A stretch of DNA of 64,000 nucleotides. It comes from Strigamia acuminata (taxonomy: Eukaryota > Arthropoda > Chilopoda > Geophilomorpha > Linotaeniidae). The notes below the pieces were generated by a model. It had not been told where the DNA came from. It worked only from the letters and a program-made list of their open reading frames with translations, and did no database searches. Position numbers and translations under genes: made by a program. The DNA lies in contig OX442324.1 of assembly GCA_949358305.1 (NCBI GenBank), positions 8,963,601-9,027,600 of the forward strand, given 5' to 3'. Numbering within the stretch: position 1 is the first letter of the stretch; each line of letters opens with the position of its first letter. Positions 28,718-63,200 of this stretch are shown piece after piece.

Positions 28718-28983
28718 TAAAGCTCCATCGGCGTCTTCTCCAAATTCAGCTTTGCAATCCTATTCCTGAGGTAGTTGAAAGTTAGAATTGCTTCACCCCA
28801 AAACCGGTGTTCCAATTGTGCGTCCTATACAAGAGCTCGCATTCCATTCGCCAAAGTTTGGTTTAATCTTTCTGAAACTCCATTCTGGACTGGTGTGTAC
28901 GCGTTTGTTCTCTCGTGTGCAATTCCCTGCTCTTCAAGGTACAATCCAAATTTGTTGGAACAAAACTCCATCCCATTATCTGT

Positions 28984-30849
28984 TCATATGGCTAAAATCG
29001 ATTTGCCAAGTAGCCGCTCGATTCGTTTCCCGTGCTTTTTAAACAACTCAAATACTTCATCCTTTTGTTTCATCAAGTATACCGTTGAATATCGCGAATA
29101 ATCGTCCGTGATGGTGAGGAAATATCTATTTCCCGATAGTGTGGGCGTTCCAAAAGCTCCGCATACATTCATATGCAGAAGTTCTAATGGTCCTTTCGAT
29201 CTAATTCCCGGTATCGACTTGTGCGATACTGACTTCTTCTTCGCCAAGGTACACACGTCGCACTGTGTGATTGGCACATCCAGCACAGGTAACCCAATTA
29301 CCGCTTCTGTCTTGCTCATTTGTTGCATGCTAGGAAAATGAATATGTCCCAGCCGTTCGTGCCAAAGTCGTGCCTCTTCTGGATTTGAAGCACTCTTGCT
29401 TGACTCAAATGATTGTTGTTTCTTGTCTTCACTAGTATTAGCCTTGCCTTTCTCCTTTTCTTTCAGTTTCTCAAAGTCGGGCTTTTCGTCGCTAAGTCGA
29501 ATATAATAGAGCCTGTCCTTCTTGATGCCCTCCATTAACTGCCTTTTCCATTGTGGGTCGTAGATTTTGACTAATCCCGCTCCAATAGCGACTCTGCATC
29601 TCGCTTCGTCAATGCACGGCCCCGACAACAAGTTTCTTCGTAAGTCCGGCGCATAGTATACCTTTTTAAGTGTGATTGGAATTGTGTTGTTTCCAACTAA
29701 ACACATGATGCAAACATCCCCAACTCCTTGTATTTGGATGAGAGTTTTCTTGTCAGCTTGGCTAATTGTCCCAGTCATTTCTTTGAAGTTGTGGAATTGA
29801 TTTCTGTCTTTGCAGAAATGTCCAGTGGCTCCAGTGTCGTAGATCCAGCAATTGTTGGCTTTGCTACACTGCAGCATCTCTTGTTCACTTAGTTCCGTGA
29901 GAAATCCTACATCTAACATGTTGGTGTCAAGTTCCTCGACCGTATTCGATTTCATGTTGCTATTTGTGACCAATTGCAACTGTGCTGTGCAATCTTTAGC
30001 CCAATGTCCATTTTGGTTACACCGGAAACACGGCCCCCGTCCTGTTGATCCGGTCGTATTTCCTCGGAAATTTCCTCTTGTGTTCCTGTTTCCTCGATAA
30101 TTTGATCTGCCGCCCTTTTGTCCAGCTTGGTATCCACGATTATTCTGGCTAAAATTCCCTTGTTGTTGTTGTTGTGACTTTGAAGAATTTTCACTCCCTT
30201 TGGCTGAGTTTGGCCCCGTACTGAAAGCGTCTATGATCTGCCCTTGGCCCGAATCTCTCTTCTGTTGAGCGAGACGTCCTTCTTCGGCAACCAATTCCGC
30301 CTCAACCTTCTCTAAAGTGAAATTCACATCCTCCCATCTGTAGATAGCCTGCACAATGGACTGATATTCTTGCGGCAAATATCGAATAAGTTGAAAGGCT
30401 TGATATAAATTGTCCAGTTGATGCTTCACATCAGCCAATTTTCTTGCGGCATTTCGTATTTTCGCCGCGAAAACTCCAATTGTTTCCGTTGCTGGGTCAT
30501 ATTTGAGGCTGAAGAATTCGTCCAAAAGGCGTATAATCCGTGCGCGAGAAACTGGTTCAAAGTTCAGCTTTAATGTGTTCCACGCCAATTTAGCATCTTC
30601 TAAGCCACTGAGCAATTCGTGGTATTGATCCTCGATGGAGTAATAGATTAAACTAAAAGCCCGTCCTTTCCTTAGTTTGTAATCGGAACGATCACGCCAC
30701 GACGCTCCAGGTGCCAATTCTTCCTCTGAACCGTCCGTGAATGCCCAGCAACCGTGGTGCATTAACAAAACCTTAATTTGCTGTTTCCACGTGTCGTAGT
30801 TTGTCCTATTTAGCAATGTCACTTTTCTCTCCGGTTTGTCCGAATCCAT
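28984..30849 (-). pseudogene. gag-pol: Copia F gag, protease and integrase N-terminus
   Basis: ATG at 30,849 opens a 621-codon frame. It contains a copia-type gag (UBN2-like, residues ~10-190), a CCHC zinc knuckle (CFRCNQNGHWAKDC), the protease motif YDTGATGHF, and the integrase zinc finger (H-x3-H ... C-x2-C, CDVCTLAK). The first catalytic acidic position of integrase reads Asn (HMNVCGAFG, codon at 29,167-29,169) where copia integrases have Asp. A TGA at 28,984-28,986 ends the frame just before the second catalytic motif, TDNGMEF, which follows in frame. A further in-frame TAG lies in the next ~60 codons. Confidence 0.92.
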
Positions 30850-36565: not shown

Positions 36566-38609
36566 GCTAGTTCAGCTTTCAAGCAAAAAGAGGAACAGTT
36601 ACCAAGTCATTGAATCAGGTTTTTCTGTTGGGGTCAGTGACGATTTTTTAAATACCGAGGAATGCTGTATCGGTAATATGGAGTCATACATTGGAAATCT
36701 TTCACTTGGCTTGGAGAAACCTCATGGAATGCAGGCTCATCCAATCGAATGGAGTTCTTCAATGACAATTCTACCTGAAATGAAGGTTGGAAAATTGGGA
36801 TTTGTAAATGTGGAACCAGCTTCATCTGTGCCGGGTAATTACACACGTGAGTGTTCTGATAATCATCATTACAGCCCGAACGTCAGAGGTTGGGATCCAG
36901 CGGGTTTTCCACTTGGTGATTTCCAGCAAACTTTTCTTGACTCGAGCTGGAGTTCCAGTAGTTGTTTGAATCATTTTGCCAATGGATGGGATCAGTCAAT
37001 TATGGTTCCAAGTAAGCAAATTTCTCATGATGCACCGTGTGGCCAACAGCACTGTACGTGGGATGATACCGGGTCACACACACTCACCGAAAGTTTGAAG
37101 AATTTGACTATTGAAAATAATAATGATTACACAAGATCGTCTCCACATTCATTATCATCTTTTGGAGAGCCAACAAATAATCCAGCTCACACTCATTGGA
37201 TGTTGATGGGCAACGTAGGAGAACTGGATGGCTACAGCAATTGTCATGAACGAGCAAGCGAGGCTAATTTATTGAAAAATGTGTCCAGTGTTTGGGACGA
37301 TTCATTAAGAAAGAGAAAGTGTTGCACTTCAACTTCACAGTTTGGCGACTCACTAGATACAGCAGCTATTACTTGCCGGGCGCCAGACACAATGAATCAA
37401 CAAGTTGGAGCAAATTGTAGGAGCTTTAAGGAGTGGAACATCGAAGAAGTCCCGTTTTCGGGATTTCCAATTGCCTCTTTGGCCAATACCACTCAGCAAT
37501 TTTATGGGTGGAAACCTCCAGTCTCGCCAGCACCCATTACTGATACGTCACCATTAACTGAATTCTCAAGTTTAAAACAGATGCTGGATGAAGGGAATTG
37601 TGAATTAAAGTTAGGAGAATCACCTGCTGTTCTTTACTTAGAAGTAGAGTCCAATTCGGCCGAGCTCAAAGAACCTAAAGCAAATTGCATGTGCAATTCG
37701 ATGGATAAGCCAGACAAGCCTCAAGTCGAAGGCATCCAATTGTCGACTATGAGCACCCCAAACATGCTATCCAAGTCGGGAACTGCACTATCGTATGCAG
37801 AAGCATTGCGAAGCAATGCTCAGAGGCGACGCACAGATTCCGAAAATGGAAGTAGCTCATCCTGCAGTGGCATTGTAACCTCAACTTCACCCACTCAATC
37901 TACTCTAATCGCAGCAAACTGCCAGACAACATTAGCTCGGCAATTTGTCGACAAGTCAGCCAACCCACGAAAAAGTCTGGATGGACGGTGCGGCAAAGTA
38001 GAAAGTGTGACTATGGCAGATGGAGTTCTGCGACTGGGAAGTGGCAGCGTCTTCTTCGACAAAAATGTCTTCTTTGACGGGGGCAAAGCTGTCTCTGATT
38101 TGCGCAGCTGTCTGAAAATCAATGACACGGTTTACTTCAATGCAACTCTTGGTGCGAACGATTACGACTGGAAGTCTACTTTGGCATGGATAGGAAAGAA
38201 ACCTCGGTCAACTTGTTCTAGTACGAGTTTAGGCGTCTTATTAGACCACTTTCAGGCTGCATTTAATGGAGGAGACCTATCAGTTTCTAATAACAATAGT
38301 AGGGTTCAGAAAACATCGCTTAAGGATCTGAGTTCATCAACGACAACAATGCTAGACTGTACTGTCGAGGGTAATGGAAAAGTTGCCAAATTGCATGCCC
38401 ATTTCGGATTCATAAGGAGGGGGAAAAGGTTTAAGGAGAATGTTCACTTCAACCGTAATGTTTTTTATGCGAGTGGCAATCGTGTCAAAGAGCTCACCGA
38501 TACCCTGAAAGAAGGGAGCAGTGTCAATTACATTGCCGTCCCCAGTAATAAGAAATCTTGCGAGTGGAAAGCTGCTCTTGTCTGGACTGGCCCTCGTCCT
38601 AAAGTCTAA
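36566..38609 (+). CDS. Host gene, 3' coding exon with a duplicated OB-fold-like domain
   Basis: The frame is open from the acceptor at 36,566. Its first internal ATG is at 36,678 (643 residues to the TAA); joined to the exon at 13,057 the product would be about 757 residues. The N-terminal two thirds are low in structure, rich in Ser, Asn and Trp-containing short motifs, with a SYAEALRSN motif. Two copies of a ~72-residue domain follow (residues 439-509 and 567-643 from ATG 36,678). Both begin GKV, have a V-F-F / V-H-F-N-RNVF core, a central L-K-x-[ND/EG]-x-V-x-[FY] strand, and end W-K-[ST/AA]-L-[AV]-W-x-G. This pattern recalls cold-shock or S1-like OB folds that bind nucleic acid. With the winged helix at the N-terminus, an RNA-binding protein is likely. 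I cannot name the gene. Confidence 0.85.
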
Positions 38610-40394: not shown

Positions 40395-41328
40395 ATGGTT
40401 TGACTGATACCAAATTTTTCGATAACGGCCGATATTGTTATGTGGCTAAATGGGGATTGATTTAGTCCTACGTGACATGAATTTAATCAAGAATGACACA
40501 GGGTTTTATATGTAAAATGCCTGTTGGCTTTATTAATCAAAGTCGGACATTTACTAATGTAAATGTTCGGTCATCAGCTCTTATTACATTTGTTCATTTA
40601 TTAAACTTAAAACACATAAATGGTTCATTCAAATCAAATAAGTAACTAAATAAGGATGATGCTGTTGTCAATTCAATTCAATTCAGGAAAACCTAGTCCT
40701 GCCTGACCGTCAACCGGCTGGCAGTAGTAGGTGAAGGTAAAAGTTTGAGAATCAAAAGAGATCTGAGCTCTCTGGCTTAATCAACTCACTAAGTAAACTC
40801 CTATTCCCCCTATCAACTAAGTTGAACGGTCTGTGCATCTAATTAGGTGCACAGCGCCGTCTAGTGAGAATTCATTGCATTAAATGCCTAAACAGAGCGA
40901 GCAGAGCCAGCCGATACACGGTACGGCTCTACCGCGTAACAATATCGATATTATTCTCCTCAATTTCAACCGATACCGATACTTTTATAAAATTATTATT
41001 TTTTAATACAACAGGTTTAAAAAGTTTATTTTTGCTGAAAAAAAATTTTATTTAAAAAACATGATTTTTTAAAAATTATTTATCTGAATAAATGACATTT
41101 ACAAAATGGTGCAAAGATTGCACAATTTTCTTCATTGTCCAGTCAATAAAACGTGGATTTGGATGTTCTGGAATGGCGTGCGCACGTTTTGATAAATGTG
41201 TCGACGACAAACGTGCGTTTTGGTATCTGTATCGGCACATATTTTTTTATCCATACCAATACTGATACTATTATTTTGCCAAATATTGGCCACTGGCCAA
41301 TACTGATATCAGTTTTGGGCAAACCCTA
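40395..41328. mobile_element. Nonautonomous DNA element S holding a solo LTR
   Basis: A 9-bp duplication ATTTTAAGT (40,386-40,394 and 41,329-41,337) flanks ends ATGGTTTGACTGATACC and GATATCAGTTTTGGGCAAACCCTA. The imperfect TIR and 8-9 bp target suggest hAT. A gypsy B-type solo LTR is inserted inside; without it the element is about 430 bp. Confidence 0.6.
40436..40941 (-). repeat. Solo LTR of the element B family (506 bp)
   Basis: It aligns along its length with the B LTRs at 44,715 and 53,206, with a number of substitutions and small insertions. ATAT flanks both sides (40,432-40,435 and 40,942-40,945). No internal sequence remains, as expected after LTR-LTR recombination. Confidence 0.9.
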
Positions 41329-43360: not shown

Positions 43361-43781
43361 AAAATTTTAGCTTTAGTGATAGCCTTAGTGAAACTATAAG
43401 CCAAGTTTAGTTTAGTACCAATATGCTGAACAACAATTTCACCCTTGGAGACTAATTCCCTTATGAAGTGATATCTAACATCTATATGTTTAGTTTTTCG
43501 CCTTTCAATTGCTGACCTGGAAAAATCTATTGCAGCAGTGTTATTACAGTATATCACTCCATTACAATCAAAATTAAGTACATCACTTATTTCATGAATC
43601 ACTCTTTTAAGAAAAAGAAAATCTTTAGCTGTTTCACTTAAAGCGATATATTCAGCTTCTATAGATGAAACTGCGACACAGCATTGTTTAAAGGTACGCC
43701 ATACAATAGGGGTTGAATTAAACATAATTAGAGTACCCCCCAAAGATATTCTATCATCTCTATTATTTGCATAATCAGAAT
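43361..43781 (-). pseudogene. Copia D fragment 3: RNase H C-terminal part
   Basis: The minus-strand frame reads SDYANNRDDRIS ... WRTFKQCCVAVSSIEAEYIAL ... CNNTAAIDFSRS ... TKHIDVRYHFIREL ... FTKAITKAK, an ordered copia RNase H. It is cut from the rest of the RNase H by miniature element I; the target duplication lies in the SDSDY codons. No LTR or polypurine tract follows; the fragment ends against the THAP pseudogene. Confidence 0.85.
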
Positions 43782-44565
43782 GGGGTTTCTTCATTTTGTC
43801 GCCCTTCATTTCGTCGCCGTGTCATTTCGTCGCCGTTTTTGGCGACGAAATGACACACAAAACGGAAAAAAAGGCGACGAAATGAAGGGCGACGAAATGA
43901 TACGGTTGAACAATCAAAACAACCCAAACCGAACAGAAGGGCGACGAAATGACACGGCGACGAAATGAAGGGCGACGAAATGATACTGCTAAGTAACCGA
44001 AACATTTGCCACAATTTGACCAGAATTGGGCCACAAGTTTGCCAGAAATTGGCCAGAATTTTGTCAGAAATTGGCCAGAATTTGGTCACAAGTTTGCCAG
44101 AATTTGGTCACAAGTTTGCCAGAATTTGGCCACAAGTTGGCCATAATTTGGCCACAATGTTGCCACAATTTGGCCTCAATGTTGCCACAATTTGGTGAGA
44201 ATTTGGCCACAAGTTTGCCACAATTTGGCCACAAGTTGGCCACAAGTTTGCCACAATTTGGCCAGAATTTGGCCAGAATTTGGCCATAATTTGGCCACAA
44301 TGTTGCCAAAATTTGGCCTCAATGTTGCCACAAGTTTGCCAGAATTTGGCCACAAGTTTGCCAGAATTTGGCCACAAGTTTGCCAGAATTTGGCCAGAAG
44401 TTGGCGATATGCCACAACAATGACATGGCGACGAAATGATAGGGCGACGAAATGATATGTTGTTGAAATGAGGGCGACGAAATGAAAAAAAAATTTTCAA
44501 CATAGCATTGATTTAAAAAAAGGACGGGGGCGACGAAATGAATGGCGACGAAATGAAGTGACTTC
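43782..44565. mobile_element. MULE-like miniature element I with iterated GGCGACGAAATGA motifs
   Basis: An 8-bp duplication ATCAGAAT (43,774-43,781 and 44,566-44,573) flanks 784 bp inserted in copia D. Both ends carry several iterations of GGCGACGAAATGA, inverted between ends. The centre (about 44,005-44,405) is a minisatellite of ~11-12 bp units such as AATTTGGCCACAAG and TTTGCCAG. The uninterrupted copia reading frame gives the empty site. Confidence 0.8.
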
Positions 44566-44714
44566 ATCAGAATCAGAATATCCTAACAAAGACATTTCAT
44601 TTCCTCTTGACAAATTAAGACGATAGTTTTTGGTTCCCCGTACATACTCCAATAATTTGATCAAAAGATTCCAATGTTTTATCCTCGGATTCTGTTGAAA
44701 CTGACTAAGGATAT
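44566..44714 (-). pseudogene. Copia D fragment 2: reverse transcriptase / RNase H junction
   Basis: Minus-strand codons read LSQFQQNPRIKHW ... LLEYVRGTKNYRL ... LLGYSDSD, the copia segment between the RPDLQYAIN and SDYANNRDD motifs. It is bounded by element B on the high side and element I on the low side and is collinear with both neighbouring fragments. Confidence 0.88.
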
Positions 44715-45206
44715 TGTTACGTGGCTAAATGGGGATTGATTTAATCCTACGTGACATGAATTTATCAAGAAAGACACAGAGTTTTATATGTAAACTGCTC
44801 TTGGCTTTATTGTTCAAAGTCGGACATTTACTAATGTAAATGTTCGGTCATCAGCTCTTATTACATTTGGTTTATTCTTAAAATATAAATCAATCATTTA
44901 TTAAATCAAATAAGTAAATAAGGATGATGCTGTTGTTTTCAATTCAATTCAAGAAGCCTAATCCTGCCTGACCGTCAACCGGCTGGCAGTAGTAGGTGAA
45001 GGTAAAAGTTTGAGAATCAAAAGAGATCTGAGCTCTCTGGCTTAATCAGCTCACTAAGTAAACTCCTATTCCCCCTATTAACTAAGTTGAACGGTCTGTG
45101 CATCTAATTAGGTGCACAGCGCCGTCTAGTGAGAATTCATTGCATTAAATGCCTAAACAGAGCGAGCAGAGCCAGCCGATACACGGTACGGCTCTACCGC
45201 GTAACA
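44715..45206 (-). repeat. 3' LTR of element B (492 bp)
   Basis: The minus strand starts TGTTACGCGG and ends CCACGTAACA. A polypurine tract (AAAGGGGGGGGC on the minus strand, about 45,218-45,207) precedes it. A CTCF-like CTCACTAGACGGCGCTG (minus) lies at about 45,132-45,116. Confidence 0.95.
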
Positions 45207-45616
45207 GCCCCCCCCTTTAATTTTTTCGGTCTCTCGAAAAACAATGAATTGTTCTAACTAACGCATCTCCTTTTACATAAAAAATTTTCAAATCATAAAC
45301 ACAATTTTACAATTTTTTGAGAATCTCTTTTCATCATCCTTATTTTTACAAAAATATAATTTAACACACTTTTCAATGTTTATAAATGTCGTAATCACTT
45401 TTTATTACACTTTTACATTGGAAACAATTTTCAAAGTTTAAAATTAAATAAAACTAACACTTTTCAACAATGATAACACTTTTTGGTTTTTTGTTTTATA
45501 TTACTTTTTTTCAGTTTTCAATTTTCTATAAAAAAATAAAAACATACACACAAAAAAAAATGTTCAAAGTTCGTGTTGATTTTACACTTATTCACTTAAA
45601 GAAGTTAAAGTTCACT

Positions 45617-46990
45617 TCACTCTCCTCCCTCCGCTTGATCCTTCTTATCTTCTTCTTTGATCAACTCGAATGGGAGAATTTCACGGTTCGCAATCTCGTA
45701 GATAAAACGTAGGCGTAACTCACACGGCTCCCCAAACTGCATCAGGTCACGATCTTCAACGTATCGTCTGATGAAATAGAGTACAGTTGGGCCGCAGCTG
45801 TCGTTGTCCAATTGGTGCATACGTGGTGGGTCCCAACGTATGAACTTGTTTGGAAATGTCACTCCTGCGCCTACCAATGAATATCTTAAAGATTCCCATT
45901 TCGGATATGTAAGTTCTATTGGTCCGCTTGGATCGTAAAGCACGTATTGGGTTGGCTTTTTTCGCCAATCCACTATGAAAAGCTGCCAATGCTCTTCAAT
46001 AGGAACTGGGAACACCCAAATCTTCTTTTGAGCACATGGAAGTCTCTTCATTAGCCAACTGATCGCTTCTCTTCGTTTGGCTGGGTCCACCATTTTGAAG
46101 ACCCAATCAGATTGGAATGGTGCCAATATCGGATATCGCTCTTCTAACAGTTGGAGGTAGTGGTCAACGACGCTGTCATACGTCCAGCTCTGTCGTCCCG
46201 GCGTCAGGTCGCCTAATGCTGCCATTTGGTAGTTCATGACTTCAATCGGCGGACATCCTACGGCGTCGAATGCTAAGTCGTATTTTGGCGCATTACTATA
46301 ATCTAATGCAAGTCCAAGAGCCTGGACCTGTCGTGCAGCGTCCAACTCCACACGGTATACCCGTATAGGAGTGGGAAATACTACACTAGGGTCCTGGAAA
46401 GACTCTCTTCTCGCTAGGGCGATGGCTTTTAGAATGTTTTTTCTTATTTTCGCCTCCTGGATCAGCAAAGCATTCGCCCCTGTTCTCCACAACTGATAGT
46501 CGGGCAATCCCATAATTCCTTTTAATTTCCTGGCTCTAATGGCGTTGACCATATTCCGGTGCTCCATTCGCAAATCATCTAATCGGCGCTTGTTACGATC
46601 GACGGTGCGACGCATTTCTTCCTCTCGGATCTTTTTCGATTGCTCGTCAAACACTTTCTTCTTTTGTGCTTTCTTATGTCGTTTCAATTGTCGATTCTTA
46701 CGACGACGACGTAATAAGCCTTCTTCACCCTTTGTTAATGGTCCTGCATATTTCTTTTTATCTTCCTCCGCCTTCCGTTTTCCTTCTGTAAACGGGCGTG
46801 GGCAGTTAACCAATTCATCCAAAGTTTTGCTTGTGCTGGGCTTATTAGCTAGATAAATTTCCAAGTCATCGCCTTTCTTGAGTTGACGTTCCAAAAGGTC
46901 GCCCACTTGCATCGAGCAAACCGAATCCGCATCACTGTCACTGTCACTACGCACATCCATCCGATCAAATTTGCTTGCCATTTCGTCCAT
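45617..46990 (-). CDS. Third ORF of element B: Ulp1/adenain-type (C48) cysteine protease
   Basis: 457 residues from ATG 46,990. Residues 1-60 are acidic and Ser-rich; 70-155 are strongly basic and probably coiled, with an NLS-like run (RRRRKNRQLKRHKK, 94-107). The C-terminal half has the Ulp1 fold motifs in order: H334 in EEHWQLFIVD, D353 in VLYDPSG, Q393 and C399 in HQLDNDSCGPT. The Q-x5-C and H-to-D spacings match SUMO/NEDD8-type proteases and adenain. All catalytic residues are present and the frame is intact. It occupies the env position, but has no signal peptide or membrane segment. An AG acceptor eight bases before the ATG suggests a spliced subgenomic mRNA. It may cut isopeptide-linked SUMO-like modifiers or process particle proteins; which is unknown. 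Element A lacks it. Confidence 0.85.
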   Translation of the reverse strand: MDEMASKFDRMDVRSDSDSDADSVCSMQVGDLLERQLKKGDDLEIYLANKPSTSKTLDELVNCPRPFTEGKRKAEEDKKKYAGPLTKGEEGLLRRRRKNRQLKRHKKAQKKKVFDEQSKKIREEEMRRTVDRNKRRLDDLRMEHRNMVNAIRARKLKGIMGLPDYQLWRTGANALLIQEAKIRKNILKAIALARRESFQDPSVVFPTPIRVYRVELDAARQVQALGLALDYSNAPKYDLAFDAVGCPPIEVMNYQMAALGDLTPGRQSWTYDSVVDHYLQLLEERYPILAPFQSDWVFKMVDPAKRREAISWLMKRLPCAQKKIWVFPVPIEEHWQLFIVDWRKKPTQYVLYDPSGPIELTYPKWESLRYSLVGAGVTFPNKFIRWDPPRMHQLDNDSCGPTVLYFIRRYVEDRDLMQFGEPCELRLRFIYEIANREILPFELIKEEDKKDQAEGGE

Positions 46991-47406
46991 TCGGATTCCT
47001 AATATATTATTTGAAAAGAAAATAAAATAAATTAATTCATTAATTCAAATTTTTCACAAAATTATTCCAATTTCCATTCATTATTTCATTTAACATTTCA
47101 TGTTGTACTAATTTACACTAAATTCAACAATTTTTCAACTAATTAGTCACTTGCTAATGTATGCACACACTAAATTTCATTTCGAAGTTTTAACACAATT
47201 ATTTAAGCCTAAATCTCCATTTCGCGATGTTATTTTTCACAAAATTTGCGATAGATTTGTTTCGTTTTTAAGCTATTTGTCCGCCAAATTCGTTCAAAAT
47301 TTCACTCTCTTCACTTACGGAATCACACACAAATCAACTGCTGCTATTATTAATGCTTTAGGTTTTCCTTGAGTCACTCAGTAAACCTGGTTCGTCTCAG
47401 AAAACC
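46991..47406 (-). promoter_or_regulatory. Pol-ORF3 spacer with a 3' splice site
   Basis: 416 bp of AT-rich DNA between the pol stop and ORF3. On the minus strand TTTTATTTTCTTTTC, then ATATTAG, ends at 46,999, followed by GAATCCGAATGG with the ORF3 ATG. The donor was not located; by analogy with env messages it should lie in the leader or early gag. Confidence 0.55.
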
Positions 47407-50400
47407 TTAACACAATCCACGATAGTCACGACGAGCCTGTTTGCGAAGGCGACGTGACCGGAAACTCTCGATTTCAGGTGGCGACGCGTCATCGACTGCG
47501 TCAGCGACACCTGTCGGCGGTTTTCGCAATTGATTTTCTTCGTTTTTCCGTTCGTCTTCGTTTTGCCATCTTTCCATAATTTCTTTCGGTCCATAGAGCG
47601 CTTTTAATCGCTCTTTTTCGCTTGGAATTGGGAAATTTGACGTTTTTATTGCATTTTCTTCAGGTTCAAAGAGTGTTTTTAACGAAATTTGATCGTCATC
47701 GCTAATGAATCGTTCTTTAGCGATTGGAATTGGCGAAATCGACGTGTTTTCTTCAATTTCTTGTTGTTTTTCACTTTGTGTTGCAATTTCATCAGCAAAT
47801 GTGACTTTTTTAGCTGTTAATTCTTCTAATATTTCCGCTGGAATTTCTTCTCTGGGTTTATACGGTTTTAATCGTTCAACGTTAACAATATTTGTTTTCT
47901 TTCCATTTGAGCTTCTAATTTCGTAGTCATTTGGCGCGGTTCTTCTTACTATTTCGTATGGGCCTGAGAATTGTGGTAGGAGTTTTTCACTTAACCCAAC
48001 TTTTCTATTGGGTGTTTTGAGATAAACTAATTCTCCTGGGTCAAATTCCACATGAACTCGGCCTTGATCGAATCTTTTTCTGCTTTTTTCTCCTTGCCAT
48101 TCCAATCTTTCATTTGCTATTTTCCTAGCTTCTCTGATGAATTTCGAGGTTCGCAAGGTGAATTCTTTCTGAGGTAAGTTGAGGTTTACGTCCACGTTCA
48201 AATCGACTTCATATCCTTTCAAAAGATAATAAGGTGTATATCCTGTCGTTTCATGCACACCGGTATTATATGAGAAAAGCAAAAATGGCAAAAAATCATC
48301 CCAGTCCCTCTGGTCCTTATCAACATAAATCTGCAACATTTTTGCAAACGTCGCATTAAATCTTTCTGTAAGGCCATTGGTCCTTGGATGGTACCCTGAA
48401 GTAGTTTTGTGTAGGGCTTTAAACATATTTGATACTTCTTCTACCATTTTGTTTCTGTATTCTGTGCCTTTATCGCTCAGGATTTCTCTCGGACTACCTT
48501 CCTTCAACATTAACTCATAAAGCAAAGTTCTAGCTGCTTCCAACGCTGTTGATGCTGGAGCTGCTCTAGCAATCACTGTCCGCGACAAATAATCTGTCAT
48601 AACGAAAACATACTTGTTGCCCTTGTCGGAGGTCGGAAAACTTCCCAATGTATCGATTCCAATCCTCTCGAAAGGCTTAGATATTGTAGACCACGGCTGC
48701 ATTAAACCTTTTGGCGCTGTTGTCATTGATTTCGAGCTCGCGCAATGTGGACAAGAAAGTACGTAATTTCTAACGTCTTTATATATCCGGGGCCAGAAGA
48801 ATCTTGTTCTCATTCTCTTCCATGTTTTGTTTAGGCCCAAGTGAGCACCCGTCAGTCTGTCATGCATTTCTTCAAGAACTGCAGTTTTCAAATGCTGCGG
48901 AACATATAACAGATTTACTTCCGTGTCTAGGGAATTCAAAGAATTTTTCTTCCTAAACAACACATTGTCGAGAAGGACGAACTGCTTTAGAGGACGTCTT
49001 CTCTTCTTCGGAAGCTGCTCTACTTGATTCATTGCGGTGATCAATTCCAGTAGCTTCTTGTCCTTACGCTGCTCAGCAGGAAGGTCGAGCTGTTCGAGTA
49101 AAAGTGAGGGAACTATTTCGTTTTCTTCCTCGCTTAAATCTACTGGAATTCTGCTCAAGGCGTCGGCATCTTTGTGCGCTTTTCCGCTCTTGTGGATCAC
49201 ATCGAAATCAAAGTCTACTAGCTTTAAGCTCCATCTAGCTAGTCTGCCGTTGGGGTTTTTGACTGATTTTAGCCATTGAAGTGCCGAATGGTCTGTAACG
49301 ATCTGGAACTTCTTACCATACAAATAAGGTCGGTACTTTTCAATTCCAAACAGAATGGCCAGACACTCCCTTTCGGTGGCATTGTAATTCTGTTCTGCTT
49401 GGCTGAGAAGTCTGCTGGCATAAGCTATCACATGTTCTTGTTTGTTTATCTTCTGTTTCAACACTGCTCCAAGACCATATGCGCTCGCGTCAGTCGATAC
49501 CATGAAGGGTTCTTCAAAATTAGGGTGAGCTAAAACTGGCACGGTTACTAGGGCGGTCCTTAATGTTTTAAAGGCCTTATCATGAGGTGGGCCCCAATCG
49601 AATTTCTCGTCCTTCTTCGTCAAATTGACTAAGGGCTTGGATATGTCCGCAAAACCTGGAATGAACTTCCTGTAATACGAACAGAGCCCTATGAATCCTC
49701 GAAGAAGTTTAAGGTTAGTAGGAACTGGAAACTTAGCTACGGATTCCAGATTCCTTGGGTCTGGTGATATACCCTCGGAGTCCACTACATGTCCCAAATA
49801 CTTGATGGTGTTCGTCCCAAATGTGCACTTGCTTAACTTCACCTTTAAGTTAGATTGTCTAAGCTTGTCGAAAACGTTGTCTAGATCTTTCAAATGCTGA
49901 TCAAATGTTTTAGAGAAAATGATAAGATCGTCAATGTACGCTATACAGACTTTGCCCAGGAGGTTGCCTAAAACTTTATTCATTAGCTTTTGAAAAGCTG
50001 CTGGACTATTGCATAATCCCATTCCTAGGACGTTAAACTCAAAATGTCCGCTTGAAGTGGTAAACGCTGTTTTTTCACGATCTTGTTCATCTATTTCGAC
50101 TTGATAATATCCTTGAATAAGATCCATCATGGAGAAGAACTGTGCACCTGCCAGCTGATCTAAAGTGTCATCTATTCTTGGCAATGGGTACACCATTTTC
50201 TTTGTTATCGCATTCAAACGTCTCCAATCAACACAAAATCTCCACTTACCATCTCTTTTCTTTATTAGCAATACAGGCGCGCTCCAGGGACTTTCTGATT
50301 CCCTTATCACTCCCATATCAAGCAATTTCTTTGTTTCCTCTGCTTCGACTTCTTTTTCCTTCATAGAACGACGATACGGTTGCAAATGTATTGGTTCATG

Positions 50401-51336
50401 GTCTCCAGTATCGATTTTATGCTTATCCCCTTGAACTCTTCCCAAATCCTTGTCAGAAACAGCAAATCTGTCTTGATTCTTTTGAAGAAGTTGTCGCATT
50501 TGCTCTTGTTGGTCTTTATTCATTTTGTCTTTTGCTATTGAGGAGTCAAAGTCAAAACAGTGTACCTGTTTTTCATCAAACACCCCAACATCAACCACAT
50601 AATAAGCTTTTGCGATTGCTGACTTCTCCTTCAGAAAGACTGTCTTCTTGGTTGGGTTAGCCACTCAAATGATGCCTTTGCCGTTCTTGAAATCTGTTAA
50701 AGTTTTACAACCAATCACAGCAAATCTATCAGTAACATTATGCAATGGTTGTACAAACATGTCCAATGTTATTGCTTTATTCAAATAGATGGGAACAATG
50801 CATTCGTGCATTGGTGGAATAGTGATGTTTTTCATTACCCTCGCAACATAATTCTGATCAACAAAAGTTTTATTCATTGGAAATGACACTTCCTTTCCAC
50901 TAGTTCGGCCCACAAAGATTTTTTGTTTGTCGTAGTCTAACACACACTTCGCGAACAGCATGAATGGGTCACTTAGCAGTAATTCATAATGAAATCCTTT
51001 AACAATCAGGACCTCGATCCTGTATGTTAATTCACCAATTGTAATGTTCATCTTGGTTTTTCCTATTGGAGTCACAAGTTCTCCGCTTACCCCTTGTAAT
51101 CGTATATTTGGGCTGGGCGGGTATTTCAACTGAAAAGCTTCAGCAAGCTCTTCGCTGATAACGTTGCGTTTTCCTCCAGTGTCCATAACTGCCTTGACTT
51201 CCATGTTGTTCACTATTACTGGAATTTCCAATAGAGATTCTGAAATGTTCATATTGACTACGATTATCTTCTCTCTTCTACTCTTTCTTTTCTTCTTTGG
51301 ATGGTAACATCTTCTTTGTGGCCGACCCACTAGTTT
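47407..51336 (-). pseudogene. pol: Pol of element B, one in-frame TGA
   Basis: Read in -1 relative to gag. The protease (MDTGGKRNVIS) lies near 51,180; TGA at 50,667-50,665 interrupts the frame just after it, in a codon that is Arg (CGA) in element A, suggesting a C-to-T change. Downstream the 1,085-codon frame is complete: RT with AYIDDLIIFS near 49,936, RNase H (STDASAYGLG, TDHSALQWL), integrase HHCC finger, D,D-35-E triad (GIDTLGSFP, LSDKGTEYRN, LTERFNATF) and a GPY/F segment. Apart from this one codon no break is seen. The break would remove RT and integrase unless read through. Confidence 0.93.
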
Positions 51337-52580
51337 TCCTCTTCATGTTGACCTTGTTGTGGGTTCTGCTTAGGATTAGGGTTAGTTTTACCACCCCCTT
51401 GTGTCCTTTTCTTCTTAAACCACCTTTTGTTGTTTGAGTTTCCTCTATTTTCTTGAGATTGTTGCTCCTGTGGCGCTGATGTGTTATGTTCACAACCATA
51501 ACGATGCCAACATCCACATGAACGCGTTGTTGTCGGACTGCTATTTGACCGCTGTCTACCTCTGTTGTATCTACCTCTAAAGTTCTGTCCGCGCTGCGAT
51601 GCTGGAATATACCACTCGCCTTGTATGAATAATGGAACCGATTGTTGTGGCTCTACTGACTCACTTACGAGCTTTTGCTGTTTTAATTTGATATTTTCAG
51701 CTAGTAACTCGGCGTAGCTTACTGGGGATCCCCCTGTTCCAGACAGTATACCTGTTGTCGTAGGGTTCACCTTTTCATCTACTACTTTTTTGAACATTGT
51801 GAGCAGTAGATCCGCTGGTTCTTCTGTTTTGTGACTTTCATACAATTTAAGTCTCTGTTCCATTTCTTCTAACGTCGATGGAAATACTGTTATCATCATC
51901 TTCTGCATTGCAGGCTTCAAACCTTGGTAAACATAATTTATTTTCTGAGTTTCAGTCATTTCTGGTAGAATAAACGCACATTCGGCCAAGACTTTCTTCA
52001 TGAAGGCATCTGCTGTACCCTCTTTGTGTTTCATGAAGTGGAGAGTATTGTAAACATTTTCTTGGCTTCTTCTAAATTTTTTCTTGATCTGTGGTTTCCA
52101 ATCCGTCCATTTCCATGTCGGATTCTTCTTAAGTTGTTCCACAAACCATGCCAATCCATCAGTCTTTAAGGCTAATGCCAAATGTTTTACTCTCTCATCA
52201 TCTGTTCCTATTGTAGCTTCATATGCCACAAGCCATTGGTCGATGTTGCCTTTTTCTGTATCATAAGTGACGACTGGTCGCTTCTGCACTACCAAACTCT
52301 TCAACAAGTCGGTCAATACGTCCGTTGGAGTCTGTGGTGATGCCATCTTTGGAAAACTTGGTTTAATTGGTGTTGGAACTGGTTTAGTCTTTACTGGTGT
52401 AAATGTCTTTATTATTTCTTCTAAACCTTTTTGTGGAATTGATTTTATTAACGGAGTAGCGAAATCCAACTTCTGTAGGATTGATTGAGGTTGAGATCGG
52501 ACTTCTTTATCTTCCTTCTGAGGTTCAGTGTCAGATTCGGATTTAGCGTTTTTACTTTTCCTAGTGGTGATATTCTTCAA
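51330..52580 (-). CDS. gag: Gag of element B
   Basis: The frame is open from about 52,613; the first ATG is at 52,346 (residue 79 of the frame), matching the ATG of element A Gag, so I favour it as the start unless a spliced leader adds the upstream codons. A capsid-like helical region (WLVAYEATIG, WTDWKPQIKKKFRR, MKHKEGTADAFM) is collinear with A. The basic, RG- and Gln-rich tail contains CGCWHRYGCEH, a C-x-C-x5-C-x-H group absent in A that could bind zinc; it is not a standard CCHC knuckle. The stop TAG (51,332-51,330) follows a slippery-like heptamer. Confidence 0.88.
   Translation of the reverse strand: MKNITTRKSKNAKSESDTEPQKEDKEVRSQPQSILQKLDFATPLIKSIPQKGLEEIIKTFTPVKTKPVPTPIKPSFPKMASPQTPTDVLTDLLKSLVVQKRPVVTYDTEKGNIDQWLVAYEATIGTDDERVKHLALALKTDGLAWFVEQLKKNPTWKWTDWKPQIKKKFRRSQENVYNTLHFMKHKEGTADAFMKKVLAECAFILPEMTETQKINYVYQGLKPAMQKMMITVFPSTLEEMEQRLKLYESHKTEEPADLLLTMFKKVVDEKVNPTTTGILSGTGGSPVSYAELLAENIKLKQQKLVSESVEPQQSVPLFIQGEWYIPASQRGQNFRGRYNRGRQRSNSSPTTTRSCGCWHRYGCEHNTSAPQEQQSQENRGNSNNKRWFKKKRTQGGGKTNPNPKQNPQQGQHEEEN
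51333..51339 (-). promoter_or_regulatory. Probable -1 frameshift site GGAAAAC (element B)
   Basis: G GAA AAC in the gag frame sits directly before the TAG. It departs from the strict X XXY YYZ form (the P-site tRNA would re-pair with one G-U), but its position equals that of the canonical heptamer in A, and pol is -1. Confidence 0.6.
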
Positions 52581-52613
52581 ATTTGGCCCAGGTGACTGCA
52601 GATCCTGCAGATC

Positions 52614-53203
52614 CTAAAGGTTATCCAAGTTGAATTGTGACAATTTCACTGGCTTATCCACTCTGAAGCCTTATATTGCACTTTTTATTCACTTCACTAG
52701 CACTAATCTCTTTCTAAACACTGAATACACTAACACGAATTCATTACCTGAAAACTTAAAGTGTTATTAGCATATAATACATAAATATTACACTCAAAAT
52801 TACAAAGAAAATAATCCATCAATAACATTTCAAAACAATTTTTCAATTCCTATAAATTCACAAAATTTCCTGTAAATAAATATCAAAATTAGTATTTATA
52901 CACTATATATTTTATTTATTCTAAATATAACAATTGTAAATCAATTTATTAATCCCTAATAAACAATTAAACCCTATTTTTATTTCCAAAATGCAAATTA
53001 TTTCACACAATGACATTAAATATTCAAGCTGTGACTTCACTTATTTTTACCAACTCTGAGTCATTCAAGATAATTGCTATAAAATCAGCAATTTTCAAGT
53101 TTTTATTTCTAGATTTTTATTAAATTATTTTGACAATTTTTAATCCAATTTTAATGGGATTTTTAAATCTAAACGGGCTACAATCGAGACCGCATCTCCA
53201 CCA
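52614..53203 (-). other. Leader and primer binding site of element B
   Basis: The minus strand reads AC, then TGGTGGAGATGCGGTCTC (53,203-53,186), right after the LTR; TGG fits a tRNA CCA end. The rest of the leader is AT-rich without a long frame. A CTGCAG duplication sits at its gag end. Confidence 0.65.
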
Positions 53204-53205
53204 GT

Positions 53206-53697
53206 TGTTACGTGGCTAAATGGGGATTGATTTAGTCCTACGTGACATGAATTTATCAAGAAAGACACAGAGTTTTATATGTAAACTGCTCTTGGCTTTA
53301 TTGTTCAAAGTCGGACATTTACTAATGTAAATGTTCGGTCATCAGCTCTTATTACATTTGGTTTATTCTTAAAATATAAATCAATCATTTATTAAATCAA
53401 ATAAGTAAATAAGGATGATGCTGTTGTTTTCAATTCAATTCAAGAAGCCTAGTCCTGCCTGACCGTCAACCGGCTGGCAGTAGTAGGTGAAGGTAAAAGT
53501 TTGAGAATCAAAAGAGATCTGAGCTCTCTGGCTTAATCAGCTCACTAAGTAAACTCCTATTCCCCCTATTAACTAAGTTGAACGGTCTGTGCATCTAATT
53601 AGGTGCACAGCGCCGTCTAGTGAGAATTCATTGCATTAAATGCCTAAACAGAGCGAGCAGAGCCAGCCGATACACGGTACGGCTCTACCGCGTAACA
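53206..53697 (-). repeat. 5' LTR of element B (492 bp)
   Basis: Same length as the 3' LTR, with two visible differences (near 53,237 and 53,451). The CTCF-like core lies at 53,623-53,608 on the minus strand. The outer flank ATAT restores the copia D sequence. Confidence 0.95.
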
Positions 53698-54134
53698 ATA
53701 TTAATTGCATATTGTAAATCGGGTCGTGTACGTAATGAGAGAAATGACAGACACCCCAAAAGACTTCTATATGGAATTTGTTCCATATCTGACAATTCTC
53801 TTGCATTTACTGGGCAATCCCCTTTTGTCAATATAACTCCTTGAGCTATTGGGAGAGAAGGAAAAGATTTACAGAACATTCCAAACTTCTCAAGAATCTT
53901 ATTGATGTAGGATGTCTGATGGATATATAGAACTCCGTTAATCTTTTCGAATTCAATACCTAGCAACTTCTTTGTTTCTCCCAACTCAACTAAATTAAAT
54001 ACATGTGCAATTTTTCTTGCCGCTCGATTGATGTTATCAATAGTATTTCCAAAAATAACGATATCGTCAACGTATACTATTAAGACGACACTTTTCCCGA
54101 AAAAATAAACACAATTACACCACTTTAATGGTAT
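53698..54134 (-). pseudogene. Copia D fragment 1: reverse transcriptase
   Basis: An open minus-strand frame from 54,134: KWCNCVYF, IVYVDDIVIFG (copia YVDD), GETKKLLGIEFEKI, YINKILEKF, PYRSLLGCLSFLSLRTRPDLQYAIN, cut by element B. The upstream part is separated by the LTR-like remnant at 54,135. Fragments 1-3 together give a collinear RT-RNase H region. Confidence 0.88.
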
Positions 54135-57901: not shown

Positions 57902-60238
57902 ATGGATCCAAACAATCTTCCTAACGAAGAAAAAGTGGCTGAAGAAAAGGCCGTAGAAGAAATAGTTAGCTTGGATTCAAGTTATGTAAAACTTTGTGAC
58001 CAAACGGAAATGATTCCCGATGAACTCACACAGTTTTGTACGCATTACGAACTAGATAGAACTCAGTTCAAAACCATAATCGAAGCTTCTGAATTTGTGA
58101 CGAAGCGGGCGTTACGTAACATACGTATTAATCCAACCCCGGAAAAACGAGCAGAACTTTCGAAGGAGAGCTCGGCGCACCATAATTTTGGAAAGGACCC
58201 AACCCCTTCACCAAAAGATCTGCCTGAAGAAAACAGATCACGACCTAAAACTCCACAACGTAAGTTGGGAGATCAAGCAAGAATTAAAACTCCGTCGGTT
58301 CGTAACCAAGATATTCGAGAGTTATTTCGAACATCAAGCAAGGAATCGCTTGATCAGTCCAGTTTAGGAAATAGAACTCCTCACTCCAGCAACGCCAGTT
58401 GCCACAATACTCCAAATATTTCGGAGGTAGGAGGATCCAATTTTTCAACTTTTCAACCTGAAAATGCTAAAAAGCAACCCAATCCACATATTTATACGGA
58501 GAATGGGACGAGACATTTTGCCAAACAAACCCCTAGAGGGCGAGGCAATAAATCCGCCATTCGACGGAAATTATCTCCACTACCATCTCCAGTCTTACCT
58601 CAAACTCGACAAGAACAATTGAGATTAGACGAAGTGGAAAAGGAACGAATTAGGCTGGAAGCAATTAATCAAAAACAGATTAACGACGAAAAGATTCGCC
58701 AAGATAAACTTGAAGGAGAAGTTGTCAATCAAAACGAAGTTCGTAAGTCGATAGACAAAAACGATAAAATTCTAATTGATCAATTACGGGCTCAATGGCG
58801 ACAGGAACACGATGAAAAGTTCCAAAAGCAACAAGATCAATACAATAAGAAGTGGGCGGAAGTGAACAGAATTGAAGACAATCAACGCAAGCGGGAGAAA
58901 ACCTTACAGGAAAGCATCCGGATAAATCTCGCGGCGTCCACTCGGGCTAGCCATGGTAGTGAACCCCGAGACCAGACAAATCCGTCACGTGCATCTACCG
59001 ATGACATTCCAAGCTCACATTTCTCGGCAGAAAGTTCTACAGAAACTAGACTTCCCTCTGACGGAACTAATATTTCATTTGATTATATTTTGAAAATGCA
59101 GCAAAATATGGCCGCCCAATTCCAAAAACAATTGGATAGTCGAATAGATACATTCGTTCAAACTCAACAAACAACTGGGCCGCAACGATCTAATAATCCA
59201 GGACCCAGTAAAGTCTTTTTCAAAGGACAAGACCTTCCAGTTTTCGATGGAAAACAGGAGGATATAGATAAATTTTTATCAGTAGCTAAAACTGTAGCTA
59301 TTTCAAAGGGATTAACTCTGGACGAAATGGTTAATCAAGGTATTCCCACCTATTTGTCCGGATTAGCCCAACAATGGTATGACGAGAATAAAACCAAGTT
59401 TACCAACTGGGAAACCTTCGTAGAATTATTTCGTGAAGAATTCGACATGATTCCAACTACTCGACTCCGAAATTTACGAAAAGTAATCCAAGGAGACGAT
59501 GAACCTTTATATGAATTTCTAGTCAGATTCACTAAAGCCCAAGGATCGTATTCCGAAAGAGGAAATGTTGCCACACTTTTCGACAACCTGAATTGGACGA
59601 GTTACAATAGATTAATCGATCGAAATCTGTACAGGAGCGAGTCAGTAGACAAAATCTTTCAATTCGTACGAACGAATAGAGCACTCTTTGAACCCCAAAG
59701 AATCCGTACAGAGAATTCCAAGGAAATTGATAAAGTGGTATCTAACAACCAGAAGTATTCTAAAGATACCAAAAATATGAGACCTTCGGCTCGATCCACT
59801 CAAATGATGGAAATAGAGCCGGAAGAAGAAATAATGGAAGTCAATGAGTTGACAGAGAATAATGTATCAATGGATAATTTATTATGTGCCATGTCGGAAA
59901 ATCAGACAGGGAAATGTTTTCATTGTAAACAACCAGGTCATTTCAAAAGAGAATGTCCTCTGCTTCCAAAGCGAAAATTTAGCAATAATTTCCCTGGAAA
60001 TAATAATTCCAATAACAATAGCGCTAATCAGCAGCCGAACGAATTTAAGCGACCACGCCAAAATTGGGTAACTGCCGAAGCTATTGATCAAAAAATGGAA
60101 GAGTTAAAAACTGATATGAATAACAGTATGCAAACAACGATAAGTAAGACAGTGTCGGATTTATTTAGTAAATTCTTAGACCCGAAGAACGCTACTACGG
60201 CACCAATTACTGAAACCCCACCGGTTCCAAAAAACTAG
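57902..60238 (+). CDS. gag: Gag of element E
   Basis: 778 residues from ATG 57,902. Residues 1-240 are charged and low in structure, with the C-x2-H-x6-QF segment shared with element C. Residues ~240-345 are a long charged coiled coil (RLDEVEKERIRLEA and following). Residues ~440-600 are a retrotransposon capsid domain (FKGQDLPVFDGK, QQWYDENKTKFTNWETF, LREEFD-like). A CCHC zinc knuckle is at C672, C675, H680, C685. It is large for a gypsy Gag because of the N-terminal extension. The stop TAG at 60,236 abuts a canonical slippery heptamer. Confidence 0.93.
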   Translation: MDPNNLPNEEKVAEEKAVEEIVSLDSSYVKLCDQTEMIPDELTQFCTHYELDRTQFKTIIEASEFVTKRALRNIRINPTPEKRAELSKESSAHHNFGKDPTPSPKDLPEENRSRPKTPQRKLGDQARIKTPSVRNQDIRELFRTSSKESLDQSSLGNRTPHSSNASCHNTPNISEVGGSNFSTFQPENAKKQPNPHIYTENGTRHFAKQTPRGRGNKSAIRRKLSPLPSPVLPQTRQEQLRLDEVEKERIRLEAINQKQINDEKIRQDKLEGEVVNQNEVRKSIDKNDKILIDQLRAQWRQEHDEKFQKQQDQYNKKWAEVNRIEDNQRKREKTLQESIRINLAASTRASHGSEPRDQTNPSRASTDDIPSSHFSAESSTETRLPSDGTNISFDYILKMQQNMAAQFQKQLDSRIDTFVQTQQTTGPQRSNNPGPSKVFFKGQDLPVFDGKQEDIDKFLSVAKTVAISKGLTLDEMVNQGIPTYLSGLAQQWYDENKTKFTNWETFVELFREEFDMIPTTRLRNLRKVIQGDDEPLYEFLVRFTKAQGSYSERGNVATLFDNLNWTSYNRLIDRNLYRSESVDKIFQFVRTNRALFEPQRIRTENSKEIDKVVSNNQKYSKDTKNMRPSARSTQMMEIEPEEEIMEVNELTENNVSMDNLLCAMSENQTGKCFHCKQPGHFKRECPLLPKRKFSNNFPGNNNSNNNSANQQPNEFKRPRQNWVTAEAIDQKMEELKTDMNNSMQTTISKTVSDLFSKFLDPKNATTAPITETPPVPKN

Positions 60239-60260
60239 TGGCGGGGGTCCTCGAGCCCCC
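60229..60260 (+). promoter_or_regulatory. -1 frameshift signal of element E: AAAAAAC plus hairpin
   Basis: A AAA AAC (60,229-60,235) is in the gag frame and touches the TAG. After a 7-base spacer, GGGGG (60,243-60,247) can pair with CCCCC (60,256-60,260) around an 8-base loop. Canonical heptamer, spacer and stem are all present, and pol is open in the -1 frame. Confidence 0.88.
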
Positions 60261-63200
60261 TATTAATAATTCCGAAGGAATTTTACCACCAGACTTGGAA
60301 CAAGCACTTTCCGAAACTTTGGATAATTTAACTATTCAAGATAAAGAAATTAAGCGTGCTCGTCCTAACCGGAAGACACGGAAAAGGAACTGGAATTATA
60401 AGTTTAAAATCGCGTCAAATACGCCCTTTTCGGCAGATGAGACAGCAAACCCGTTCTTGAATTTTCACGACGACCTGTTTTCTCTAGATAAGGGGGACGA
60501 ATCTTTAGCTAGATTGATACAAGATACATCCAATCTTAATATTCGTGATGAATCCACCAGTTCTAGTGGAGGAGTATTCGAGAATTTACAATCAATGATT
60601 GATAATTTGAATCCCGACTCCAAATCCTCCAGATTTGCGAGATTAAAATCTTACATTAACGAGAGTCAGTTAAAACGAAAAGATGGCATCGAACGAATTA
60701 ATAAATTGGGAAATCACATCGACGACCCCCGAATGAAAATTACAATAGGTGGACTCACCTATAATGCTTTGATGGACTCAGGAGCCACACAGTGTTTTAT
60801 TGGGTTGCAATTACTAAGTAAAACTTGTGCATCTCCCGATTTCATACAAGATTGTCCAAAACACATGAGAGTTTGTGCAGTTGGAGTTACTCATATTCCA
60901 CTGGGACAAATTACTTTGTGTGTACAATGGGCAGATGGAGCAGAATTCACACCGATAAATTTTATCATTTTGGATAATAATGTGTGTGGATTAATTATCG
61001 GACATAATTTTATGCGCCGAACCAAAATTAATTTAAATCCAGCACGAGCTGTATTTACTTGCGACAGCAAGTCCGACTGGACTGCACCCTACGAAACTGA
61101 CGAGTTAAATTGTAATTTAGCTCGAGTACAAGTGTTGACTGACAACGCCACAGCCACACACACGCCAGATAATTGGGAAGAATTGCTGGTAAAGGATTGT
61201 GACTGTTCAGATGAGGAAAAAAGTAAATTACGCGAAGTAATTGCTAGTGTTAAGAACGTCTTTAGAGATAAAGTCGGATGTACTAACATAATAAAGCATA
61301 AGATCACCTTTAAAAAGGATGTAACGTGGAAAAAACAACCATTTCGAATGTATAACCCTGCTAAAATAGCCATTATGACTAAATTAGTAGAAGAATTAGA
61401 AGCGGATAATTTGATCGAAAGAGCTACTGGACCTTACATAAGTCATCCAGTGATCGTAGCCAAACCAAATGGTACTTATCGTTTATGTATCGATTATCGG
61501 TGGTTGAATGCAATCACCGAAATCAACGCCATACAAATGCCAAGTATTGATTTGTTACTCCACAATACAAATCAGGCAAAATATTTCACGTCTCTTGACC
61601 TTACCAAAGGTTATTATCAGGTCGAGATGGACGAGGAAGATAGACAGAAAACAGCCTTTTATACTCCGAAAGGCAATTACCAATTTGTCCGCATGCCTTT
61701 TGGTCTTTGCAATGCGCCATGTACATTTCAGTTCTTAATGGAACGAGTAATGGGCGAAGCATTATACAAACACGCGTTAGTCTATTTGGACGACGTGATA
61801 ATCTTCTCCACCACTTGGGAGAAACATCTTGAACATATCAAAGATGTGTTGGAAAGACTAGATAAAGCCAACTTATCAGTAAATAAGGAAAAATCAAAAT
61901 TTGGAAAAACTACACTCAAATTTTTGGGTCATTTGATAACTCCAACCGGATTAGCACCTGACCCAGACAAGATAGTATCCGTTAGGAAATATCCAACTCC
62001 TAAGAATTCCAAGGATATTCAACGATTTCATGGCTTGTCAAATTTCTTCCGGAAATTTATTCCCGAACATGCAAAAATTGCTAGGCCTCTAACTAGCATG
62101 ATGCATGATAAAGCAGTGTTCGAATGGGGAGAAGAACAAGAGAAAGCTTTTGAAACAATAAAAAATATTTTATGTGACGAAACACAAGTTTTGTTAATGC
62201 CAGATATGATGAAACCATTCGTAATCTTGACAGACGCATCACATGATGGACTTGGTAGTGTGTTATGCCAAGATGTGGAATTCTTCGATGAAGGAAAAAG
62301 AGAAATGATCATGACTCCTAGACCCGTAGCTTATGCTAGTCGAGTCTTACGAGGGGCAGAAGTACGCTACTCAACACCCGAACTCGAGTGTTTAGCAGTA
62401 GTGTGGGCAGTCGACAAATTCCGACCGTATATCGAATATACGACATTTACTTTGGAATCAGACGCCGAAGCATTAAAATGGCTGATGGGAACACCAGAAC
62501 CATCGGGACGATTTGGTCGTTGGGCAATTAAACTTCAATGTGGCGCCTTTAAGATTAAATATCGACGAGGTACCCAGAACCAAGTTGCCGACGCCTTCTC
62601 GAGAGCGCCTTTGGAGATCGAAGACATTCCAGAGAATGATTATTGTGAGCCAATCGAGATTACTCAATTCTGGCCGGAATGGGACGGAAATCGAGAAATT
62701 ATTCGAAGGAATAATAGAGAAGATTGCCAATTTCTCACGAATGTGCAGCTTCATTTCGATTATTCCAAATTATTATACAATACTTTGGAAAAGGGGGAGA
62801 AGATGGATGAAGCTACAGAAGAAACACTATTTAGTGCTTTAACTGAAGTTTTAAAGGAAGTTCCACCGACTCGAGAAGAAATTATAAAAGCTCAACTAGC
62901 CGACAAAGAGTGTAGAATAATAATCGATCATCTGAAACGAGATGAAATCGAACAAAGAAAGTTTAAGAAAACTAAAGAATGGATGAAAGCAGTCCAAGGT
63001 TACCAATTAGATTTTCAAGAAGAAAATGGTAATGAAATGCTGATTTATTTCAAACCAACGTTTGAAGAGGAATTGAATGACTCTGGAAACGGATTTAAAG
63101 CTGTCATTCCACCGTCATTAGTACGAAGAGTACTGTTTGCCTGTCACGGACATCCATTAAGTGGACATGCAGGGATGAGTAAGACGCTCGAACGAGCAAA

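Follow-up and report, generated by a model that had tools for sequence, protein, structure and literature searches.

The analysed window (the whole stretch of 64,000 nucleotides) contains a Ty3/gypsy element at positions 44715-53697 on the minus strand, which is complete from LTR to LTR and bordered by the target site duplication ATAT (44711-44714 on the left and 53698-53701 on the right, in plus-strand coordinates). The 5' LTR (53206-53697) and the 3' LTR (44715-45206) are each 492 bp long, share TG...CA ends and are identical at 490 of 492 positions. Such near identity marks the element, which carries an additional open reading frame (ORF3), as a recent insertion. A primer-binding-site-like stretch beginning with TGG (53186-53203) lies two bases inside of the 5' LTR, and a run resembling a polypurine tract, and presumably acting as one (45207-45218), adjoins the 3' LTR. 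Between these signals we identified, all on the minus strand, gag (51330-52580; a weak, sub-cut-off match to Ty3_capsid, with no CCHC knuckle found), an aspartic protease frame with the DTG motif (50665-51330) and a pol open frame of 1085 codons (47407-50664) for reverse transcriptase (RT), RNase H and integrase, with the Pfam domains RVT_1, RT_RNaseH, Integrase_H2C2, rve and Integrase_p58_C. This order, gag followed by protease, RT, RNase H and integrase, is that of Ty3/gypsy elements and, together with the paired LTRs and the ATAT duplications, bears out the Ty3/gypsy identity proposed in a preliminary description of this DNA. An in-frame stop lies between protease and RT, where the frame of a sister element (see below) is open. 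The pol region of this copy is thus interrupted, which concerns the state of the copy and not its family, and the copy is probably not autonomous.

The insertion site lies in a copia pol gene, pieces of which flank the element on both sides (53688-54122, 44566-44715 and 43663-43779, minus strand). With the element and one ATAT removed, the joined flanks formed a single continuous copia pol frame (the empty site), which was identical to the copia pol at 26753-28717 in 91 of 192 alignment columns. The continuity of the copia frame across the empty site indicates that the inserted unit extended from LTR to LTR, and hence that it brought ORF3 along, barring a later entry of ORF3 into this copy. 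Another, longer copia element occupies 26753-30849 (minus strand). A further gap in the interrupted copia pol holds a satellite-like tandem array with an 11-bp unit (43950-44466), in which 29 overlapping copies of 198 nt were registered, nearly all at 11-base steps; the array also yields repetitive minus-strand open frames. A solo LTR (40436-40941, minus strand), which belongs to this LTR family or to a close one, is approximately 93% identical to the LTRs of the element. It is likewise flanked by ATAT, and the presence of this sequence at both insertions of the LTR family (two cases only) may reflect a target preference. A 643-codon open frame at 36678-38609, with no recognised domain (weak match to DUF7930, E 0.018), possibly represents a host gene. 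No tRNA was found in the window and no Rfam family reached its gathering score.

ORF3 (45617-46990) starts with ATG at position 46990 of the minus strand and runs through 457 intact codons to 45617. It begins 416 nt past the pol stop, after an AT-rich spacer (46991-47406), and ends 410 nt short of the 3' LTR. The earlier report of an intact frame of this length, placed after pol and before the 3' LTR, is thus confirmed; the frame belongs to the minus strand, and read in the opposite direction the interval contains stops. In second-order Markov simulations based on the composition of ORF3 itself (n=500), stop-free runs reached at most 247 codons (mean 105), and in those of the pol-to-LTR region (n=500) the longest run was 191 codons, against 475 observed. 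Since the frame is so much longer than the simulated ones, we rejected chance as its source. Over the same interval, stops number 26 and 31 in the remaining two sense frames and between 12 and 20 in the frames of the antisense strand. Like gag, protease and pol, ORF3 is rich in G at the first codon position, and its GC content is 46%, compared with 41% for pol and 23% and 28% for the two flanking spacers. No transmembrane-like stretch was detected in ORF3 (the highest 19-residue hydropathy was 0.72), and its identification as an env gene was rejected on the lack of a membrane-like segment. The N-terminal half contains basic stretches at approximately aa 94-157, with clusters at aa 94-110; these lie ahead of a Ulp1-like domain (approximately aa 265-438), in agreement with the basic region noted previously.

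Shortly upstream of the ORF3 start codon is a pyrimidine-rich stretch, followed by a few A/T bases and then by TTAG, eight bases before the ATG. This is a possible splice acceptor, although in AT-rich DNA such a site carries little weight. Between the two spacers flanking ORF3 there are repeats, among them an inverted pair of 13 nt (45285-45297/47005-47017) and some short direct ones, and shuffled spacers reached the observed counts in 18 of 30 cases for the inverted repeats and in 22 and 24 of 30 for the two counts of direct repeats. With flanking repeats at the level of chance, nested insertion of a Ulp1-carrying transposon was rejected as the source of ORF3. A second insertion has left no mark here, and an old one may still have taken place.

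The C-terminal part of ORF3 (aa 225-457; 45617-46318, minus strand) resembles the Ulp1/SENP cysteine proteases. When it was compared with PDB sequences (phmmer, E up to 10), 14 of the 15 matches were SENP1, SENP2, SENP3, SENP5 or Ulp1, the best with an E value of 2e-4, and the fifteenth was a pseudouridine synthase (E 0.43). The whole ORF3 gave SENP/Ulp1 proteins in 14 of 18 matches, and the reversed domain, used as a control, gave none. In the printed alignment, H334, D353, Q393 and C399 are paired with the SENP1 His, Asp, Gln and Cys, which we take to be the catalytic residues, so that the four residues singled out in the preliminary description do stand in Ulp1 order, with the Q-x5-C spacing. 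Their contexts in ORF3 are H334-W335, Q-x5-C and C399-G400. Moreover, W269-x-x-D272 aligns with W-L-N-D of SENP1 and W335 with the Trp following the catalytic His; these two tryptophans presumably line the tunnel for the Gly-Gly tail of the modifier. The similarity is low overall (about 24 bits at best), and most of the other matches reach only to just before or past the Asp. Adenovirus protease, SENP8/NEDP1 and SENP6/7 were not named among the PDB matches up to E 10, which suggests that ORF3 is nearest to the SUMO-specific branch.

Pfam listed no family other than C48 for the catalytic domain, even at E values as high as 10. The domain scored 16.4 bits (E 0.0084), below the 20.7-bit cut-off, and the whole ORF3 9.7 bits (E 0.96). 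Because the score lies under the curated cut-off, we call the domain Ulp1-like and not a certified member of PF02902; in other words, the earlier assignment to Ulp1 (C48) is upheld by the SENP/Ulp1 matches and the clean reversed control, and falls short in the Pfam comparison. An AlphaFold model of aa 225-457 built from one sequence was poor (pLDDT 37.7). Used as a Foldseek query, it matched nothing at E <= 0.001. At E <= 10 there were 274 matches, which are not meaningful; the best 50 were of unrelated kinds. Weak matches to FAP7 (E 0.15) and Tektin-3 (E 0.25), together with one of the N-terminal half to Myb/SANT (E 0.19), were set aside as likely compositional, and the matches in NCBIfam and PHROGs were likewise weak, with E values of 0.11 or worse. 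Taken together, the sequence comparisons make it highly probable that the ORF3 domain is homologous to the Ulp1/SENP proteases.

A word-based search of a database of 5.8 billion proteins with the whole ORF3 yielded no relative at E <= 10 among 7999 scored candidates, possibly because the basic half had taken up the available words; the same type of search in that database with aa 225-445 yielded none at this threshold among 528 candidates. In viral contigs, pattern scans based on ORF3, on pol and on an alignment of pol gave 3, 6 and 18 stretches, respectively, and in bacterial and archaeal contigs one based on ORF3 gave 23; no relative was confirmed in either set, and neither is a likely place for a eukaryotic element. 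Phage records contained no match to aa 225-457 at E <= 0.01. The failure of the two protein searches to find a close relative suggests that the sequence has probably been diverging for a long time. Within the 64,000-nucleotide window ORF3 was seen in one copy.

The pol of the element has numerous relatives in the protein database (4618 of 7974 candidates at E <= 0.001). The best 120 of these are approximately 34-50% identical to it and have Ty3/gypsy-type domains of RT/RNase H or integrase; the organisms named among these 120 matches are mostly pseudoscorpions, spiders and ticks, and also a fish and a lancelet. The closest pol lies in the window itself, in the sister gypsy element (7-5030, plus strand), whose protease-RT-integrase frame is open over 1241 codons. 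A pol tree with 18 rows joins this element to the main one with 100/100 support, and the two pol sequences are about 72-75% identical. The gag sequences of the two elements are only 38% identical, though the identity of pol is 72%. By its LTR the sister represents another family; its own 3' LTR could not be placed, as its 5' end lies outside the window. The 1.67 kb after the sister's pol showed no ORF3-like frame (in tblastn the best E value was 1.3). Either one lineage thus gained ORF3 or the other lost it, and a single pair cannot tell between the two. A third, more distant gypsy-type element (57902-64000), with a CCHC knuckle in gag and pieces of RT and integrase, is cut by the window end; it forms a very long branch in the pol tree and was left out of the reading.

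On the basis of these comparisons, we lean towards the view that a gypsy element acquired a stand-alone gene for a Ulp1/SENP-type protease, which would be made and would act in the nucleus on a SUMO-like modifier, to the benefit of the element. According to this scenario, the C48-like cysteine protease would have been added as a separate third gene downstream of pol. The protein would be translated from its own, probably spliced, mRNA; the distance between the pol stop and ORF3 would require either a separate message or reinitiation. It would then enter the nucleus, possibly targeted there by the N-terminal basic clusters, and its C-terminal isopeptidase-like domain would remove a ubiquitin-like modifier, most likely SUMO. 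Since the enzymes nearest to ORF3 are SUMO-specific, the protein would most probably strip SUMO from a target in the nucleus. That target might be a host factor for silencing, transcription or DNA repair, or else Gag or integrase of the element itself, and its deSUMOylation might favour expression or integration of the element. A suggestion that repair factors are targets has been made for the Ginger transposons (PMC2836005).

The near identity of the LTRs limits what can be read from the intact frame. It implies that the copy from which the element recently derived already had an intact ORF3, if ORF3 did not enter the main copy later; at most, the intact frame points to such a source, and not to selection on ORF3. 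This bears on an alternative that we regard as unlikely, although it deserves serious attention, namely that ORF3 is a functionless passenger: a host SENP-like sequence that arrived through insertion or was picked up by template switching or read-through, and is confined to one copy or a young subfamily. The single copy of ORF3 and its lack in the sister element fit this explanation, and with LTRs as similar as these an intact frame is no proof that selection acted after insertion. Against it, ORF3 is oriented in the sense direction, lies between pol and the purine tract, and retains both its frame and the four catalytic residues; the repeats in the flanking spacers do not exceed chance, and the probable long divergence indicated by the missing close relatives also speaks against a passenger.

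Adenovirus and Polinton proteases of the Ulp1 type presumably cut capsid proteins during particle maturation, and ORF3 might cut Gag in the same manner. A Ulp1-like cysteine protease is described as common to Polintons, adenoviruses and their kin (PMC10175614). The gypsy element, however, retains an aspartic protease with DTG, which would make a second maturation protease unneeded; the matches of ORF3 are SENP/Ulp1 proteins, with no adenovirus protease among those named up to E 10, and its basic N-terminal clusters would suit action in the nucleus. A particle-maturing function, raised in the preliminary description, is thereby weakened, and we consider it improbable; given the element's own protease, the role of a SUMO-type isopeptidase seems the likelier of the two. 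Equally little credence can be given to a non-catalytic ORF3 that binds SUMO, another modifier or genomic RNA and is regulatory, like CERV of the retrotransposon Cer1 (a spliced-mRNA product reported to be needed for nuclear export of Cer1 genomic RNA; PMC10309623). The basic half of ORF3 would suit such a binder, whereas all four catalytic residues are kept and binding alone would not require them.

As for the consequences of the favoured reading, SUMO protease activity acquired by the element, published work on silencing offers a framework. In Caenorhabditis elegans, Argonaute-directed silencing has been reported to require SUMOylation of HDA-1 (PMC8131101), and activation of the yeast LTR retrotransposon Ty1 has been attributed by the authors, as their inference, to decreased SUMOylation of unknown factors (PMC8585004). 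If silencing needs SUMOylation in worms and lowered SUMOylation activates Ty1, then a SUMO protease borne by an element would be a natural counter-measure. The proposal in the preliminary description that the protease might counter SUMO-dependent silencing is plausible in this respect. The same yeast study also reports that Ty1 RNA rises on loss of Ulp1 itself (PMC8585004), so that a retrotransposon would not necessarily profit from a SUMO protease and the direction of the effect is uncertain. We therefore put forward only tentatively, as a less probable and more specific proposal, that a Ty3/gypsy lineage keeps a captured SUMO protease as an enzymatic anti-silencing factor, which would deSUMOylate the small-RNA silencing or transcription machinery, or the element's own integrase.

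Among the open-licence papers listed by our literature searches we found no description of a gypsy element with a separate Ulp1-like third ORF, in line with the preliminary description, whose author knew of no such family. What appears to be new is the presence of a Ulp1-like protease as a separate ORF3 in a gypsy element; Ulp1-like domains in other mobile elements are known. The order His-Asp-Gln-Cys and the motifs H-W, W-x-x-D and C-G are common to ORF3 and to SENP1, SENP2, SENP5 and Ulp1 (judged from the SENP1 alignment), which are, however, cellular SUMO proteases, whereas ORF3 belongs to a mobile element. Cer1 of C. elegans is, like the element described here, of the Ty3/gypsy type. It is also an LTR retrotransposon with a protein beyond Gag and Pol, yet this protein, CERV, is described as a novel RNA-export protein and not as a protease (PMC10309623). 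LTR retrotransposons of bdelloid rotifers resemble the main element in encoding an enzyme as ORF3 downstream of pol, but the enzymes reported are a GDSL esterase and a DEDDy exonuclease, and the terms Ulp1, C48 and cysteine protease do not occur in the main text of that article (PMC5408684).

Ulp1-like proteases themselves have been described in several other types of mobile elements. Polintons and related viruses carry one (PMC10175614; PMC5718144 speaks of a cysteine protease), and Ulp1-like domains of Mutator DNA transposons are cited in PMC2836005. Some families of Ginger1 combine a gypsy-like integrase with a Ulp1 domain, and others with OTU, but Ginger1 is described as a cut-and-paste DNA transposon with terminal inverted repeats and with the protease fused to the transposase (PMC2836005). 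The nematode non-LTR retrotransposons NeSL and Utopia-1_TSP also encode a Ulp1-like cysteine protease domain (PMC4640811). In contrast to the main element, which has LTRs, a gypsy-type pol and a separate ORF, they are reported to carry it at the N-terminus of the RT-bearing protein. The acquisition of Ulp1-type proteases by several unrelated mobile elements hints that reversal of SUMO or ubiquitin tags helps transposition. In NeSL/Utopia and Ginger the protease is fused to RT or transposase, respectively; the stand-alone version in an LTR element would be separate from both and would thus make this idea directly testable.
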